A DNA stretch of 64,000 nucleotides from Colwellia sp. (lineage in GTDB: Bacteria > Pseudomonadota > Gammaproteobacteria > Enterobacterales > Alteromonadaceae), in assembly GCA_022969175.1 (NCBI GenBank), contig JALJPB010000006.1, positions 1-64,000 on the forward strand. Reading direction: 5' to 3'. The notes under the pieces are model-generated. The model was not told where the DNA came from. It worked only from the letters and a program-made list of their open reading frames with translations, and searched no databases. The translations under genes and the position numbers were made by a program. Below, in pieces: positions 3,028 to 6,994 of the stretch (the stretch's first letter is position 1; each line of letters begins with the position of its first letter).

Positions 3028-3486
3028 TTAGTTAGGTGCTGTGTCGTACCAAATTGCGTATTTATCTCCTTGCCATTTGAGCAATTGAAATAAATATGCC
3101 AGGGCAAGCATTATTAGCCCACCCTCAAGTGCTGCTGGACTAATAAGTCCTAAGCAACAAAATATAAAGCCGCTGATATGTGAAACAACTTCAATACGCA
3201 CGGTAGAACGCCTAGTGGGTTTGGTATTTAAAAAATTGAGGGCGAACCAGCATTTTACTAAAAAGGGTAAGCGGCTCCAGTTATCTGAACTTTTGTCTAT
3301 CATAAATTTCTCCTGATTCAAGGTTGAAATATCAACATCAAGTGCAGCAGATAAGCATTTAAGTGATTCAATACTGGCATTATGGCCACTTTCAATACGC
3401 TGGATGGTTCTAACATTTAATCCAGACATTTGAGCGAGTTGCTCTTGTGAAAAGTGGCGACTGATACGCAGTTCTTTAAGAATCAT
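3028..3486 (-). CDS. XRE-family regulator with membrane-like C-terminus
   Basis: A 152-residue protein. Residues 1-55 are a helix-turn-helix of the Cro/C1 type (LRISRHFSQEQLAQMSGLNV, then RTIQRIESG) and should bind DNA. Residues 100-140 are hydrophobic and look like two short membrane segments around SHISGFIFCCLGLISPAAL and IMLALAYLFQLL. This layout is common in small membrane-tethered XRE regulators of marine gammaproteobacteria. It is divergent from the Fur-box operon, with the GTCGG hairpin in the space between. It might regulate itself, but its target is not shown by the sequence. Confidence 0.8.
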   Translation of the reverse strand: MILKELRISRHFSQEQLAQMSGLNVRTIQRIESGHNASIESLKCLSAALDVDISTLNQEKFMIDKSSDNWSRLPFLVKCWFALNFLNTKPTRRSTVRIEVVSHISGFIFCCLGLISPAALEGGLIMLALAYLFQLLKWQGDKYAIWYDTAPN

Positions 3487-3730: not shown

Positions 3731-3762
3731 TTGCAAACACAAATGAGAATGATTATCATTTG
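3731..3762 (+). promoter_or_regulatory. Promoter overlapped by a Fur box
   Basis: TTGCAA (3731-3736), a 17-base spacer and TATCAT (3754-3759) form a promoter. Over the spacer and -10 lies GAGAATGATTATCATTTGT (3744-3762), matching the classic Fur consensus at about 14 of 19 positions. A wider inverted repeat, CAAATGA (3740-3746) with TCATTTG (3756-3762), frames it. Iron-loaded Fur bound here would block the -10, so the downstream NiSOD operon should be on when iron is scarce. Confidence 0.75.
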
Positions 3763-3795
3763 TGTGAATTGAATTGTACTTATAAAGAAATACCA

Positions 3796-4236
3796 ATGAC
3801 CATAACTAAATTGATCTGCTTTTACCTACTATTTTGTTCGTCTTTAATAAACGCTCAAGAGCACATAGTCCACTTAAAAACGATGGGGACTAACGGTAAA
3901 ATGATGGTGTTTGAACCAATTTTATCAAAAATATCAGTTGGCGATACCGTTAATTTTATCCCTAGCGATGCATCACACAATGCAGAGTCTTTTTCTGTAC
4001 CTACTGAAAAATCGACCTTTAAGACGCCATATGGCAAGGCAACTAAAATCACTTTTAATGAAGAGGGCATAGTACTAGTAAAATGTTTACCCCATTTTTC
4101 CTTAGGCATGATTGGCATTATTGTGATTGGAGAAAATGTTGATAAAAAGAAGGCTGTTAGTGATTGGCAGACTATTAGAGCTGGTGTGGCTATCAATAAA
4201 GAAGTTATAGATCAGGCATTAGCCCAAATAAAATAA
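3796..4236 (+). CDS. Pseudoazurin-like periplasmic cupredoxin
   Basis: A 146-residue blue copper protein. The first 20 residues are a signal peptide (cleavage after LINA), so it acts in the periplasm as a one-electron carrier. The copper ligands are visible: His61 in SHNAES, then Cys97, His100 and Met105 in KCLPHFSLGM, the C-x2-H-x4-M spacing of pseudoazurin. The length fits that family. I use ATG 3796; the TTG 36 bases earlier lies inside the Fur box and would put sequence in front of the signal peptide. It is the first gene of the Fur-controlled operon. Its redox partner is unknown; the link with superoxide removal is inferred from position only. Confidence 0.85.
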   Translation: MTITKLICFYLLFCSSLINAQEHIVHLKTMGTNGKMMVFEPILSKISVGDTVNFIPSDASHNAESFSVPTEKSTFKTPYGKATKITFNEEGIVLVKCLPHFSLGMIGIIVIGENVDKKKAVSDWQTIRAGVAINKEVIDQALAQIK

Positions 4237-4254
4237 CGATAACTAACTTAACAA

Positions 4255-4698
4255 ATGGATGAAGAATTTATGCAACAATGGCAAACCTTATTAACAGACG
4301 GTAATGACTGTTTTGATAATGAAAATTGGTTACAGGCAGAATATTGTTATAAAGAAGCCGCCTTTCATCTTGATACTTTATGGTCTGCTGATTCAAAAAA
4401 TATTCAGCTTCTTATGGCGTGGATATGTGCATTACATAATTTAGCGTCTTTATTTGAAGCTCAAGATAATCCTGACTTGTCTTTGCAATATTTATTAATT
4501 CCGCACGATAAAATGCTATCTATCAGTATTGCTCCAGAAGAGTGTGAAGACCTGAAACTTATTGCTGCTAATGCTCTTAAAATTACTTTTTCGCCGATTT
4601 TGATGTTTTCTAAACGATACCCTATGTGCCCTAAGTGTACAAAATCTTTGAAAAAATTCAAAGACAACCTAGATCAGGATTCAAGCAACTTGCATTAA
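4255..4698 (+). CDS. TPR-like cytoplasmic protein, unknown function
   Basis: A 147-residue helical protein lacking a signal peptide. Residues 10-80 resemble one to two tetratricopeptide repeats (GNDCFDNENWLQAEYCYKEA, with a following LMAWICALHNLASLFEAQ), as in proteins that hold partner proteins. Near the end, PMCPKCTKSL gives a CxxC pair that might bind metal. It lies 18 bases after the cupredoxin gene and 25 before the next, so it is co-transcribed. The start could instead be the ATG at 4270, which has GAAGAA in front. It may help metal loading or assembly of the operon's enzymes; that is inference. Confidence 0.65.
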   Translation: MDEEFMQQWQTLLTDGNDCFDNENWLQAEYCYKEAAFHLDTLWSADSKNIQLLMAWICALHNLASLFEAQDNPDLSLQYLLIPHDKMLSISIAPEECEDLKLIAANALKITFSPILMFSKRYPMCPKCTKSLKKFKDNLDQDSSNLH

Positions 4699-4723
4699 CT
4701 TTATATTTAATAAGGACGATAAA

Positions 4724-4945
4724 ATGAAAGTAAAACAAATAATAGTAGCGATCTTCTTTAGCTGTTTTAGTGCCATATCATTTGCGCATGAAGGACATGA
4801 TCATAATACTTTTTCAGCGGTATTTATTCATTTGTTATGGCTTGCCCCTGCAATGATTGTGGCGACTGTTATCTATAGCAATATTTTGAAAAAAAGCTAT
4901 GGCATGAAATCAGCTAGCCATGAAAAAAATATTGAGGTGTCGTAA
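4724..4945 (+). CDS. Small exported His-rich single-helix membrane protein
   Basis: A 73-residue protein. Residues 1-21 are a signal peptide ending in SFA. Cleavage there would leave a mature N-terminus HEGHDH, a metal-binding pattern that starts with His. A second hydrophobic helix (residues 32-52, FIHLLWLAPAMIVATVIYSN) anchors it in the inner membrane with a short cytoplasmic tail. AAGGACG precedes the ATG. It sits two bases upstream of the nickel superoxide dismutase gene, so a role in nickel or copper capture for that enzyme is attractive but unproven. No family is recognised. Confidence 0.7.
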   Translation: MKVKQIIVAIFFSCFSAISFAHEGHDHNTFSAVFIHLLWLAPAMIVATVIYSNILKKSYGMKSASHEKNIEVS

Positions 4946-4947
4946 CT

Positions 4948-5451
4948 ATGTTATATGAACTAATTAAAAAACTAGACAATAAAATGCATTTTTCAACGGT
5001 CTCTGCTCACTGTGATATTCCTTGTAAAATTTATGATCCTATCACGGCACAGATAGCCACCTTAACTATGATTAGAATGGTTGATTTATTAGTTGAATTG
5101 CAAAATAAAGCCAAGTTAACCACAGAAGAACAAGCTCAATTCACCCGATTAGTTGCTCAAAAAGAGCACCATGGTATTAAGGTCAAAGAAGAAATTACCG
5201 TTATTTGGGGCGATTTTATCAAAGAGCCTCAATTAATAAAATTTCCTGAACTGCACTCTTTAGTTCATAGCATTATGTTAGAAGCATCTAAAGCCAAGCA
5301 GCATATTAATAAAGAAATAGCCTTGTCTTTGTTATCTAAGGTCAATCGATTTGCTGAAATATTTTGGCATTGCAAAGACATTGAAACATATTCCGCGCAA
5401 TGCCCATATCCACCAGAGCAATCCCTAATTTATCCTTTTTTAAACCAATGA
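4948..5451 (+). CDS. sodN: Nickel superoxide dismutase precursor
   Basis: Converts superoxide to peroxide and oxygen with a nickel centre. After a 20-residue leader the protein reads HCDIPCKIYDP (residues 21-31). This is the nickel hook of the family (HCDLPCGVYDP): His1, Cys2 and Cys6 bind nickel and Tyr9 lies in the active site once the leader is cut. The usual Gly7 is Lys here. The helical body that follows (for example IATLTMIRMVDLLVEL) fits the four-helix fold. At 167 residues it is somewhat longer than typical precursors, the surplus being at the C-terminus. Its stop overlaps the start of the peptidase gene (ATGA), the pairing seen in known sodN loci. The leader lacks an export signal, so the enzyme is probably cytoplasmic. 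Confidence 0.9.
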   Translation: MLYELIKKLDNKMHFSTVSAHCDIPCKIYDPITAQIATLTMIRMVDLLVELQNKAKLTTEEQAQFTRLVAQKEHHGIKVKEEITVIWGDFIKEPQLIKFPELHSLVHSIMLEASKAKQHINKEIALSLLSKVNRFAEIFWHCKDIETYSAQCPYPPEQSLIYPFLNQ

Positions 5452-5750
5452 AAATTTGGGGGATTAAAATATGGCGAGTGACAGGACACAGTATGTTTCC
5501 TCGAATTCCCCAATACAGTTATGTTTTGGCAATTCACTGGTTCCGTTATCGTAAAATAAAACCAAAGCACACTATATTGATTGACCACCCTAAACATGGC
5601 TTGTTAATAAAGACGGTGGCATTTGTTGATAAAAACTCATTAGTTTGGTGCAAGGGCGAAAACCCCTCTAGCATCCGAGTTGAAGAACTCGGCCCGGTGA
5701 ATAGTAAACAAATCATCGGACAAGTGATTAAAATTTTTAAAAAACATTAA
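5448..5750 (+). CDS. Nickel-type SOD maturation peptidase (S24/S26-like)
   Basis: A 100-residue serine peptidase of the signal-peptidase/LexA fold. Ser15 in VTGHSMFP and Lys55 in LLIKTVAF match the catalytic Ser/Lys dyad. Small peptidases of this kind lie beside sodN in many bacteria and are thought to remove the leader so that His1 of the nickel hook is exposed. The ATG at 5448 overlaps the sodN stop, implying translational coupling; the longer frame from 5400 would lie inside sodN. There is no N-terminal membrane anchor, in keeping with a cytoplasmic substrate. Confidence 0.88.
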   Translation: MKIWGIKIWRVTGHSMFPRIPQYSYVLAIHWFRYRKIKPKHTILIDHPKHGLLIKTVAFVDKNSLVWCKGENPSSIRVEELGPVNSKQIIGQVIKIFKKH

Positions 5751-5800
5751 AAACGCTTCAAAATAATGAAGCAAGAACCGAGTTATTGGACATTGAGTTT

Positions 5801-6994
5801 ATGGTACTAAGTCAAAGATTGATTGACGCGCAAATATTAATTCGTAGTTTATGTTTAACCCACAAACGACTTTTATTACCGGTAATTATATGCGTTTTGC
5901 TGTTAACAAAGAGTACTCATGCTCTGACCATTAATGTTTTGTCTGATGCTTTTTGGCAAGTTTCTGCTTATGTTGCTGCTAGTTTAGCGATATACCATTA
6001 TCTGGCGAGTATTATTAGCCAATACAAATGGCTTGTTAATGTTCATGCCAATAACAGTAAATACCAAGTGGTTGCCGCTAGCCTTATGGGAGCCATACCT
6101 GGTTGTGGTGGAGCTATTGTTATTATCACCCAATTTGTTCAGGGCAAGTTTTCATTCGGCGCAGTTGTTGCGGTATTAACTGCAACAATGGGAGATGCTG
6201 CTTTTCTTTTATTAGCAGCGCAACCTAGTGTTGGCTTATTCGTTCTTAGCATTGGGGTCGTGGTCGGTATTATTTCCGGTTGGTGTGTTGATAGCATCCA
6301 TGGTGATAAATTTTTGCGCCCAGAACAACACGAAAAAGGGACAAGGGCGACTTGCAAACAAGGGTTAAATACAAAGATATCAGCACCAATAAAGTTACAA
6401 GGAGTGTTTTGGCAATGGGCACTTTTACCCTCAGGTGTTATCGCCGTTTTATTTTCCTTTCAAGTGAATGTAGATCAATTTTTCAAGCTAGCTGCAGGCA
6501 CAATAAATAATATTGGTGCATGTGCTGCAGTTATTGCGATGATTTTATGGGCTTTGTCTAGAGAAGTTACTAGTTATCAGTCACTTGTCTCTGAAGATTT
6601 GGCGATTAATACTCGGAATCTATTTCAAAAAGTAGCACAAGATACTAACTTTGTTGCCAGTTGGGTGATTTTAGCCTTCTTAATGTTTGAATTGTTTATG
6701 CTTTTTTCAGGACTAGACTTAGGTAAAGTTTTTTCTCAATGGGGTAACTTAACGCCGTTACTGGCAGTCATTATTGGCTTACTACCTGGGTGTGGGCCAC
6801 AAATAATCACTACAAGCTTATATTTGTCAGGCACTATTCCCTTGTCTGCCCAACTAGGTAACGCAATTAGTAATGATGGCGATGCCTTGTTTCCGGCAAT
6901 CGCCATGGCGCCTAAAATGGCACTAATCGCCACTTTGTATTCAGCTATCCCGGCAGTTATTGTCGCTTATGGCTACCTCTATCTTTTTGAGTAA
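5801..6994 (+). CDS. Putative ten-helix metal permease (ArsP_2/DUF2899-type)
   Basis: A 397-residue inner-membrane protein with about ten hydrophobic helices in two halves. Each half has a matching motif, MGAIPGCGGA near residue 100 and IGLLPGCGPQ near residue 330, which suggests an internal duplication and a Cys in the transport path. This fits the family annotated as a putative manganese or heavy-metal transporter. It closes the Fur-controlled NiSOD operon, 50 bases after the peptidase gene; a short hairpin (GCTTCA/TGAAGC near 5755-5772) lies between. I favour ATG 5801 over the TTG at 5786. Substrate and direction of transport cannot be told from sequence. Confidence 0.75.
   Translation: MVLSQRLIDAQILIRSLCLTHKRLLLPVIICVLLLTKSTHALTINVLSDAFWQVSAYVAASLAIYHYLASIISQYKWLVNVHANNSKYQVVAASLMGAIPGCGGAIVIITQFVQGKFSFGAVVAVLTATMGDAAFLLLAAQPSVGLFVLSIGVVVGIISGWCVDSIHGDKFLRPEQHEKGTRATCKQGLNTKISAPIKLQGVFWQWALLPSGVIAVLFSFQVNVDQFFKLAAGTINNIGACAAVIAMILWALSREVTSYQSLVSEDLAINTRNLFQKVAQDTNFVASWVILAFLMFELFMLFSGLDLGKVFSQWGNLTPLLAVIIGLLPGCGPQIITTSLYLSGTIPLSAQLGNAISNDGDALFPAIAMAPKMALIATLYSAIPAVIVAYGYLYLFE

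Follow-up and report, generated by a model that had tools for sequence, protein, structure and literature searches.

The first 64,000 positions of contig JALJPB010000006.1 from Colwellia sp. (GCA_022969175.1), here called the window, contain a six-gene operon built around sodN, the gene for nickel superoxide dismutase (NiSOD). From the DNA and its relatives we consider it probable that this is a Fur-repressed operon that would make a complete NiSOD when iron is scarce. The six plus-strand genes are packed within 3796-6994 in the order pseudoazurin, DUF2753/TPR-like protein, a small His-motif membrane protein that we call HisTM, sodN, sodX, and ArsP_2 permease. All of them are open reading frames at the place and strand given by a prior model reading of the letters alone (the sequence-only reading), which described six close, same-direction genes of these kinds; the gaps are 18, 25, and 2 nt, then an overlap of sodN with sodX, then 35 nt. 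The features are as follows.

3731..3759, plus strand: sigma-70-like promoter TTGCAA-N17-TATCAT, 9/12 matches
3742..3760, no strand: Fur box AATGAGAATGATTATCATT, 18/18, within a near-perfect 25-bp palindrome at 3739-3763
3796..4236, plus strand: pseudoazurin-like cupredoxin with signal peptide and type-1 Cu ligands H61, C97, H100, M105
4255..4698, plus strand: DUF2753/TPR-like protein with six helices, CxxC, and a conserved C-terminal His
4724..4945, plus strand: HisTM, with signal peptide, HEGHDH at the predicted mature N-terminus, and one transmembrane helix
4948..5451, plus strand: sodN, Ni superoxide dismutase, propeptide ending ...VSA directly before HCDIPC
5448..5750, plus strand: sodX, NiSOD maturation peptidase, reading frame open from 5400
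5786..6994, plus strand: ArsP_2 (PF11449) permease with two PGCG motifs, an optional part

The cupredoxin start is the ATG at 3796 and not the TTG at 3760, and the sodX start is more likely the ATG at 5448 than 5400.

The Fur box covers the spacer and the -10 of the promoter-like site, and the promoter overlapped by a Fur-like palindrome that the sequence-only reading had described is thus found in place. Promoter-like matches in the window are no commoner than chance, and the sigma-70-like site by itself is not above chance. The genome was scanned with the consensus AATGAKAATNATTMTCATT in its 7-1-7 form, scored out of 18, which was used in place of an earlier 19-bp GATAATGATAATCATTATC consensus that, in one phase, underscored boxes. 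Since the window box is the sole mismatch-free (18/18) match in the 4.97 Mb genome, we take it to be genuine and not a chance match. Matches with 1-2 mismatches include sites near TonB-receptor genes, FeoAB, and Bfr/Bfd (bacterioferritin/Bfd); allowing up to 3 mismatches gives 64 against 51 for the reversed pattern, close to background, and such matches were not used.

A SodN profile scan of named genomes gave 80 loci, which with the window make 81 operons, 64 of them with accessory genes and 17 being bare sodN-sodX pairs, mostly from SAR11-type single cells. Boxes scoring at least 15/18, searched upstream of the first gene of each operon, are found in 56/81 operons versus 14/610 control upstream regions from the same loci. 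All 56 boxed operons are among the accessory-bearing ones, and none of the 17 bare pairs has a box at this threshold. Motifs shuffled as palindromes with the same letters matched on average 0.95 of the 81 operons; one shuffle matched 51, presumably being a near-copy of the motif, and the next best matched 4. Because the box is conserved to this extent above the controls and the shuffles, we regard Fur control as a property of this operon type and not of the window's genome alone. Two marks of a Fur regulon member, a box overlapping the promoter and its conservation in relatives, are present. As a separate observation, at three loci of relatives (L106 6838-8950, L178 8402-10925, L107 8323-9409) TonB-receptor-like or paired bacterioferritin-like genes directly follow the NiSOD operon and carry strong Fur boxes of their own, so that the locus is an iron-response neighborhood.

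SodN belongs to Sod_Ni/TIGR02753 (TIGR02753/PF09055) with 187.7 bits against a cut-off of 90, and its HCDIPC nickel hook, of the HCxxPC type, is invariant. SodX scores 59.3 bits, slightly under the 63.25 of TIGR02754, with the Ser/Lys catalytic dyad kept in 79/79 relatives and the gene overlapping or abutting sodN. Gene-order clustering of 31 genomes of the order and of the 80 named loci gives in both sets the same constant block of TPR-like protein, HisTM, sodN, and sodX, and the two unstudied proteins that the sequence-only reading placed in the unit, the TPR-like protein and HisTM, are thus conserved with sodN-sodX. A second SodN type, seen at L058, L059, and L060, has a Sec-like signal peptide ending in YS or FS directly before HCQIPC, with no SodX or HisTM near its sodN. 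Signal peptidase cleavage would there expose His1 directly, and the enzyme would be exported and mature by another route. At L061 (genome G283), SodN is truncated to 84 residues and reads AKCDIPC; the nickel-ligating His1 is missing, no HisTM accompanies it, and it is probably a decayed NiSOD.

HisTM is a protein of 73 residues with a signal peptide, then H-x-G-H-D-H, one transmembrane helix, and a mostly basic tail. H22, G24, H25, and H27 are invariant in the alignment, and domain searches assigned HisTM to no family. Counting as strong a match with E below 1e-18, in a sample of 296 genomes of the order HisTM is found in 28/28 genomes with this SodN type and in 0/268 others, always directly upstream of sodN. 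The Sod_Ni matches without HisTM are three exported SodN forms of the other type, one truncated copy, and one sub-threshold match. A phylum-wide sample has the same pattern, and the pairing extends to a genome from a different family within the class. Trivial linkage among close relatives was considered as an explanation of the pairing and rejected, given that it holds in 28 genomes of several families. We know of no metallochaperone for marine gammaproteobacterial NiSOD, and nickel insertion into NiSOD in cells is, to our knowledge, an unsolved matter. Because its occurrence tracks this NiSOD so closely, HisTM is a good candidate for the missing nickel-delivery partner. Outside NiSOD operons, the sequences closest to HisTM include N-termini of HupE/UreJ nickel permeases, and a profile-profile match to the HupE N-terminus has 97.9% probability, with part of that match being signal peptide. 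HisTM is not the multi-helix permease that defines HupE/UreJ (PF04955), being similar at its N-terminus only, and it is not a HupE. In HupE/UreJ permeases and in "Ang" domains, a mature N-terminal His motif beside a membrane part has been proposed to capture metal (PMC12537917).

The TPR-like protein of the window is sub-threshold for DUF2753 (PF10952), at 21.9 versus 28.7 bits, and 25/36 of its relatives match that family, the best at 1e-8. Its model is all-helical, with six helices and a predicted local distance difference test (pLDDT) score of 91.8, and a fold search finds generic TPR proteins only. The C-terminal residue is His in 59/61 of these proteins despite differing tail lengths, and 46/61 have a CxxC near the C-terminus; taken with the His motif of HisTM, these patterns suggest metal handling. 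A second DUF2753/TPR-like paralog lies away from sodN at L194 (genome G079), divergent to a Fur-boxed pseudoazurin gene, an arrangement in which the TPR family may pair with pseudoazurin too.

The cupredoxin that leads the operon matches PF00127 (Copper-bind) and is of the plastocyanin/azurin type close to pseudoazurin; its best solved relatives are all pseudoazurins (best E = 2e-35), and all 13 sequences of the alignment retain the four type-1 copper ligands. Against the pseudoazurin equivalog TIGR02375 it scores 94.9 with a cut-off of 109.85, and a Thalassotalea relative is above the cut-off at 117.4. Pseudoazurin leads 10/81 operons, namely those of the window, six Colwellia, two Thalassotalea, and Cognaticolwellia mytili, with a Fur box in front of it in all ten. 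In 3 more loci it is near the operon: in a Pseudoalteromonas it lies beside it in divergent orientation, in a Psychrobiaceae bin a TonB-receptor gene stands between the two, and in Veronia pacifica it lies downstream. The neighborhood search for sodN with pseudoazurin that the sequence-only reading had proposed as a check hence finds the co-occurrence beyond the window's genome. A genus search found that genome alone. Because it is present at 13/81 loci in total, pseudoazurin is an add-on to the TPR-HisTM-sodN-sodX core and not a founding member. No nitrite or nitrous oxide reductase gene was found among its examined neighbors. The best description of it is a copper protein of the Fur regulon that often becomes part of the NiSOD operon.

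The permease at the end of the operon belongs to ArsP_2 (PF11449), scoring 482 versus 32.5 bits, and comes after sodX (or sodN) in 7/81 loci. Its model has a pLDDT of 73 with weak structural matches to ion-transporter folds, from which no substrate is readable, and a literature search of open-access papers found nothing on the family. The metal permease of the sequence-only reading turns out to occupy a variable slot, which in Moritella and a Psychrobiaceae genome is filled by a SitABCD-type Mn/Fe importer. Upstream of the operon, the minus strand encodes a PEP-CTERM protein at 1371-2081 and an XRE-type regulator at 3028-3486, neither of which turned up among the relatives that were listed in detail.

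A single Fe/Mn-type superoxide dismutase (SOD) is encoded elsewhere in the genome and has the AAQ signature of an iron SOD (FeSOD). Two Fe/Mn SODs occur in 0/27 NiSOD genomes with a detected Fe/Mn SOD versus 40/255 others (p 0.013, kinship uncorrected), which is in line with NiSOD replacing a second, non-iron SOD. The sequence-only reading's idea of one iron-sparing unit holds as to the tight operon, the Fur box, and the logic of changing from an iron to a nickel SOD, but not as to pseudoazurin, which is optional. Nor is iron sparing itself new, because the rise of the Alteromonas macleodii NiSOD transcript under iron limitation has been published and is read there as iron sparing (PMC7190382); in the California Current, NiSOD has been used to mark iron stress (PMC11069385). 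For NiSOD, the accessible text of the A. macleodii study mentions neither a Fur site nor a link to pseudoazurin nor accessory proteins (PMC7190382), and the Fur site and companion genes were not found in other accessible papers. A search of open-access papers found none joining NiSOD with pseudoazurin or with Colwellia. The comparison adds as new a Fur footprint that spans genera, the link to pseudoazurin, and the two uncharacterized NiSOD companions.

The mechanism that we propose starts from iron-loaded Fur sitting over the promoter, which iron shortage would release, a step with strong support in the sequence. SodN and SodX would then be made together, as their families and tight spacing indicate; SodX would cut the SodN propeptide, exposing His1-Cys2...Cys6 for nickel binding, and the NiSOD would replace the single FeSOD encoded elsewhere. 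At a confidence slightly short of even for the two proteins jointly, HisTM would be an inner-membrane protein exposing H-x-G-H-D-H on the outer side, where it would catch nickel as proposed for nickel-permease N-termini, and the TPR protein, which ends in His and frequently has a CxxC, would be a cytoplasmic nickel-handling or assembly partner of SodN. For pseudoazurin we hold the balance to be even that it is a Fur-controlled copper electron carrier, added in some lineages, that would spare the iron of c-type cytochromes or serve iron-uptake redox. The ArsP_2 permease would adjust a metal ion. Less likely than not is the further proposal that HisTM and the C-terminal-His TPR protein form a dedicated nickel-delivery route for marine gammaproteobacterial NiSOD, and that Fur switches on this route and a copper electron carrier jointly, as a single unit for replacing iron.

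Several observations weigh against this account. Two operons from one genus of the window's family (L031 and L036) have the NiSOD core without a recognizable Fur box; their response to iron may be controlled in another way or through a degenerate site. The SAR11-type and other bare sodN-sodX pairs lack HisTM and the TPR protein, and therefore neither is needed for every NiSOD. The match to HupE, being in part signal peptide and otherwise a short His motif, could have arisen by convergence. That SAR11 NiSODs lack both proteins, and that a TPR fold is a protein-binding scaffold, would also suit roles other than nickel handling, such as envelope targeting, stability, or peptidase regulation of SodN/SodX. 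We rate this as rather doubtful, given the near-invariant HxGHDH just after the HisTM signal peptide, its likeness to nickel permeases, and the near-invariant C-terminal His of the TPR protein on tails of varied length. A different regulator is very improbable: Fur-family sites do look alike, and the Fur-family protein Nur of Streptomyces controls SOD genes by nickel (PMC3919588), so that Nur or Zur could make the operon answer to nickel or zinc, but the motif is of the Fur 7-1-7 type common to FeoAB, Bfr/Bfd, and TonB-receptor genes in the same genome, and the Alteromonas NiSOD responds to iron.

The optional members leave more room for other explanations. Pseudoazurin might be functionally untied to NiSOD, an independent Fur-regulon gene brought beside sodN through the same kind of promoter and having its own job in iron acquisition or respiration, and we give this nearly the same standing as its opposite. 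On the SodN tree, at least 6 changes are required to account for its presence, and hence the link with NiSOD was gained or lost repeatedly. Most of the unlinked copies in Moritella and Psychrobiaceae have Fur boxes of their own at 15-17/18, and small-genome relatives carry more distant homologs within iron ABC-transporter operons, so a role in iron uptake is possible. In Actinobacillus pleuropneumoniae, one pseudoazurin so placed rises by 2.38 log2 as protein when iron is withheld, whereas the transcript drops by 1.85 (PMC12507848). Set against independence is that 10/11 genomes of the order with a close pseudoazurin also carry this sodN, linked or not (Fisher p about 1e-10, inflated by kinship). 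For the permease, the annotation of PF11449 and NF037962 as heavy-metal exporters would make it a guard against overload with nickel or another heavy metal rather than an importer feeding NiSOD. Those names are predictions, however, an importer fills the same slot in relatives, and the structure model hints only at a general ion-transporter fold, which leaves the exporter a possibility that we do not favor.

Under the proposed Fur-repressed NiSOD operon, the Fur footprint would be a sequence-level cause for the NiSOD iron response seen in marine bacteria, and iron sparing driven by Fur in the ocean would gain a nickel branch and sometimes a copper one. HisTM, which in the sampled order is never missing beside one large NiSOD clade and never found elsewhere, and the TPR protein with its fixed C-terminal His offer concrete candidates for nickel delivery.

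The closest known systems are the sodN-sodX pairs of Streptomyces, cyanobacteria, and marine bacteria, which have the same HCxxPC SodN with an adjacent S26-type peptidase SodX; the window operon differs in having an iron-type Fur box instead of Nur, and in adding the conserved TPR and HisTM genes with optional pseudoazurin and permease. In enterobacteria, sodA is Fur-repressed and an iron SOD is exchanged for a non-iron SOD via Fur; the replacement metal there is manganese, whereas in the window operon it would be nickel. HupE/UreJ permeases and the "Ang" N-terminal-His domains have, like HisTM, a signal peptide followed by a His motif at the mature N-terminus (PMC12537917), but unlike HupE/UreJ, HisTM has one transmembrane helix, no permease domain, and a tie to NiSOD. 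The pseudoazurins of denitrifiers and of the Actinobacillus iron ABC operon (PMC12507848) are of the same cupredoxin family with H-C-H-M type-1 copper ligands, and unlike them, the pseudoazurin of the window leads a NiSOD operon.

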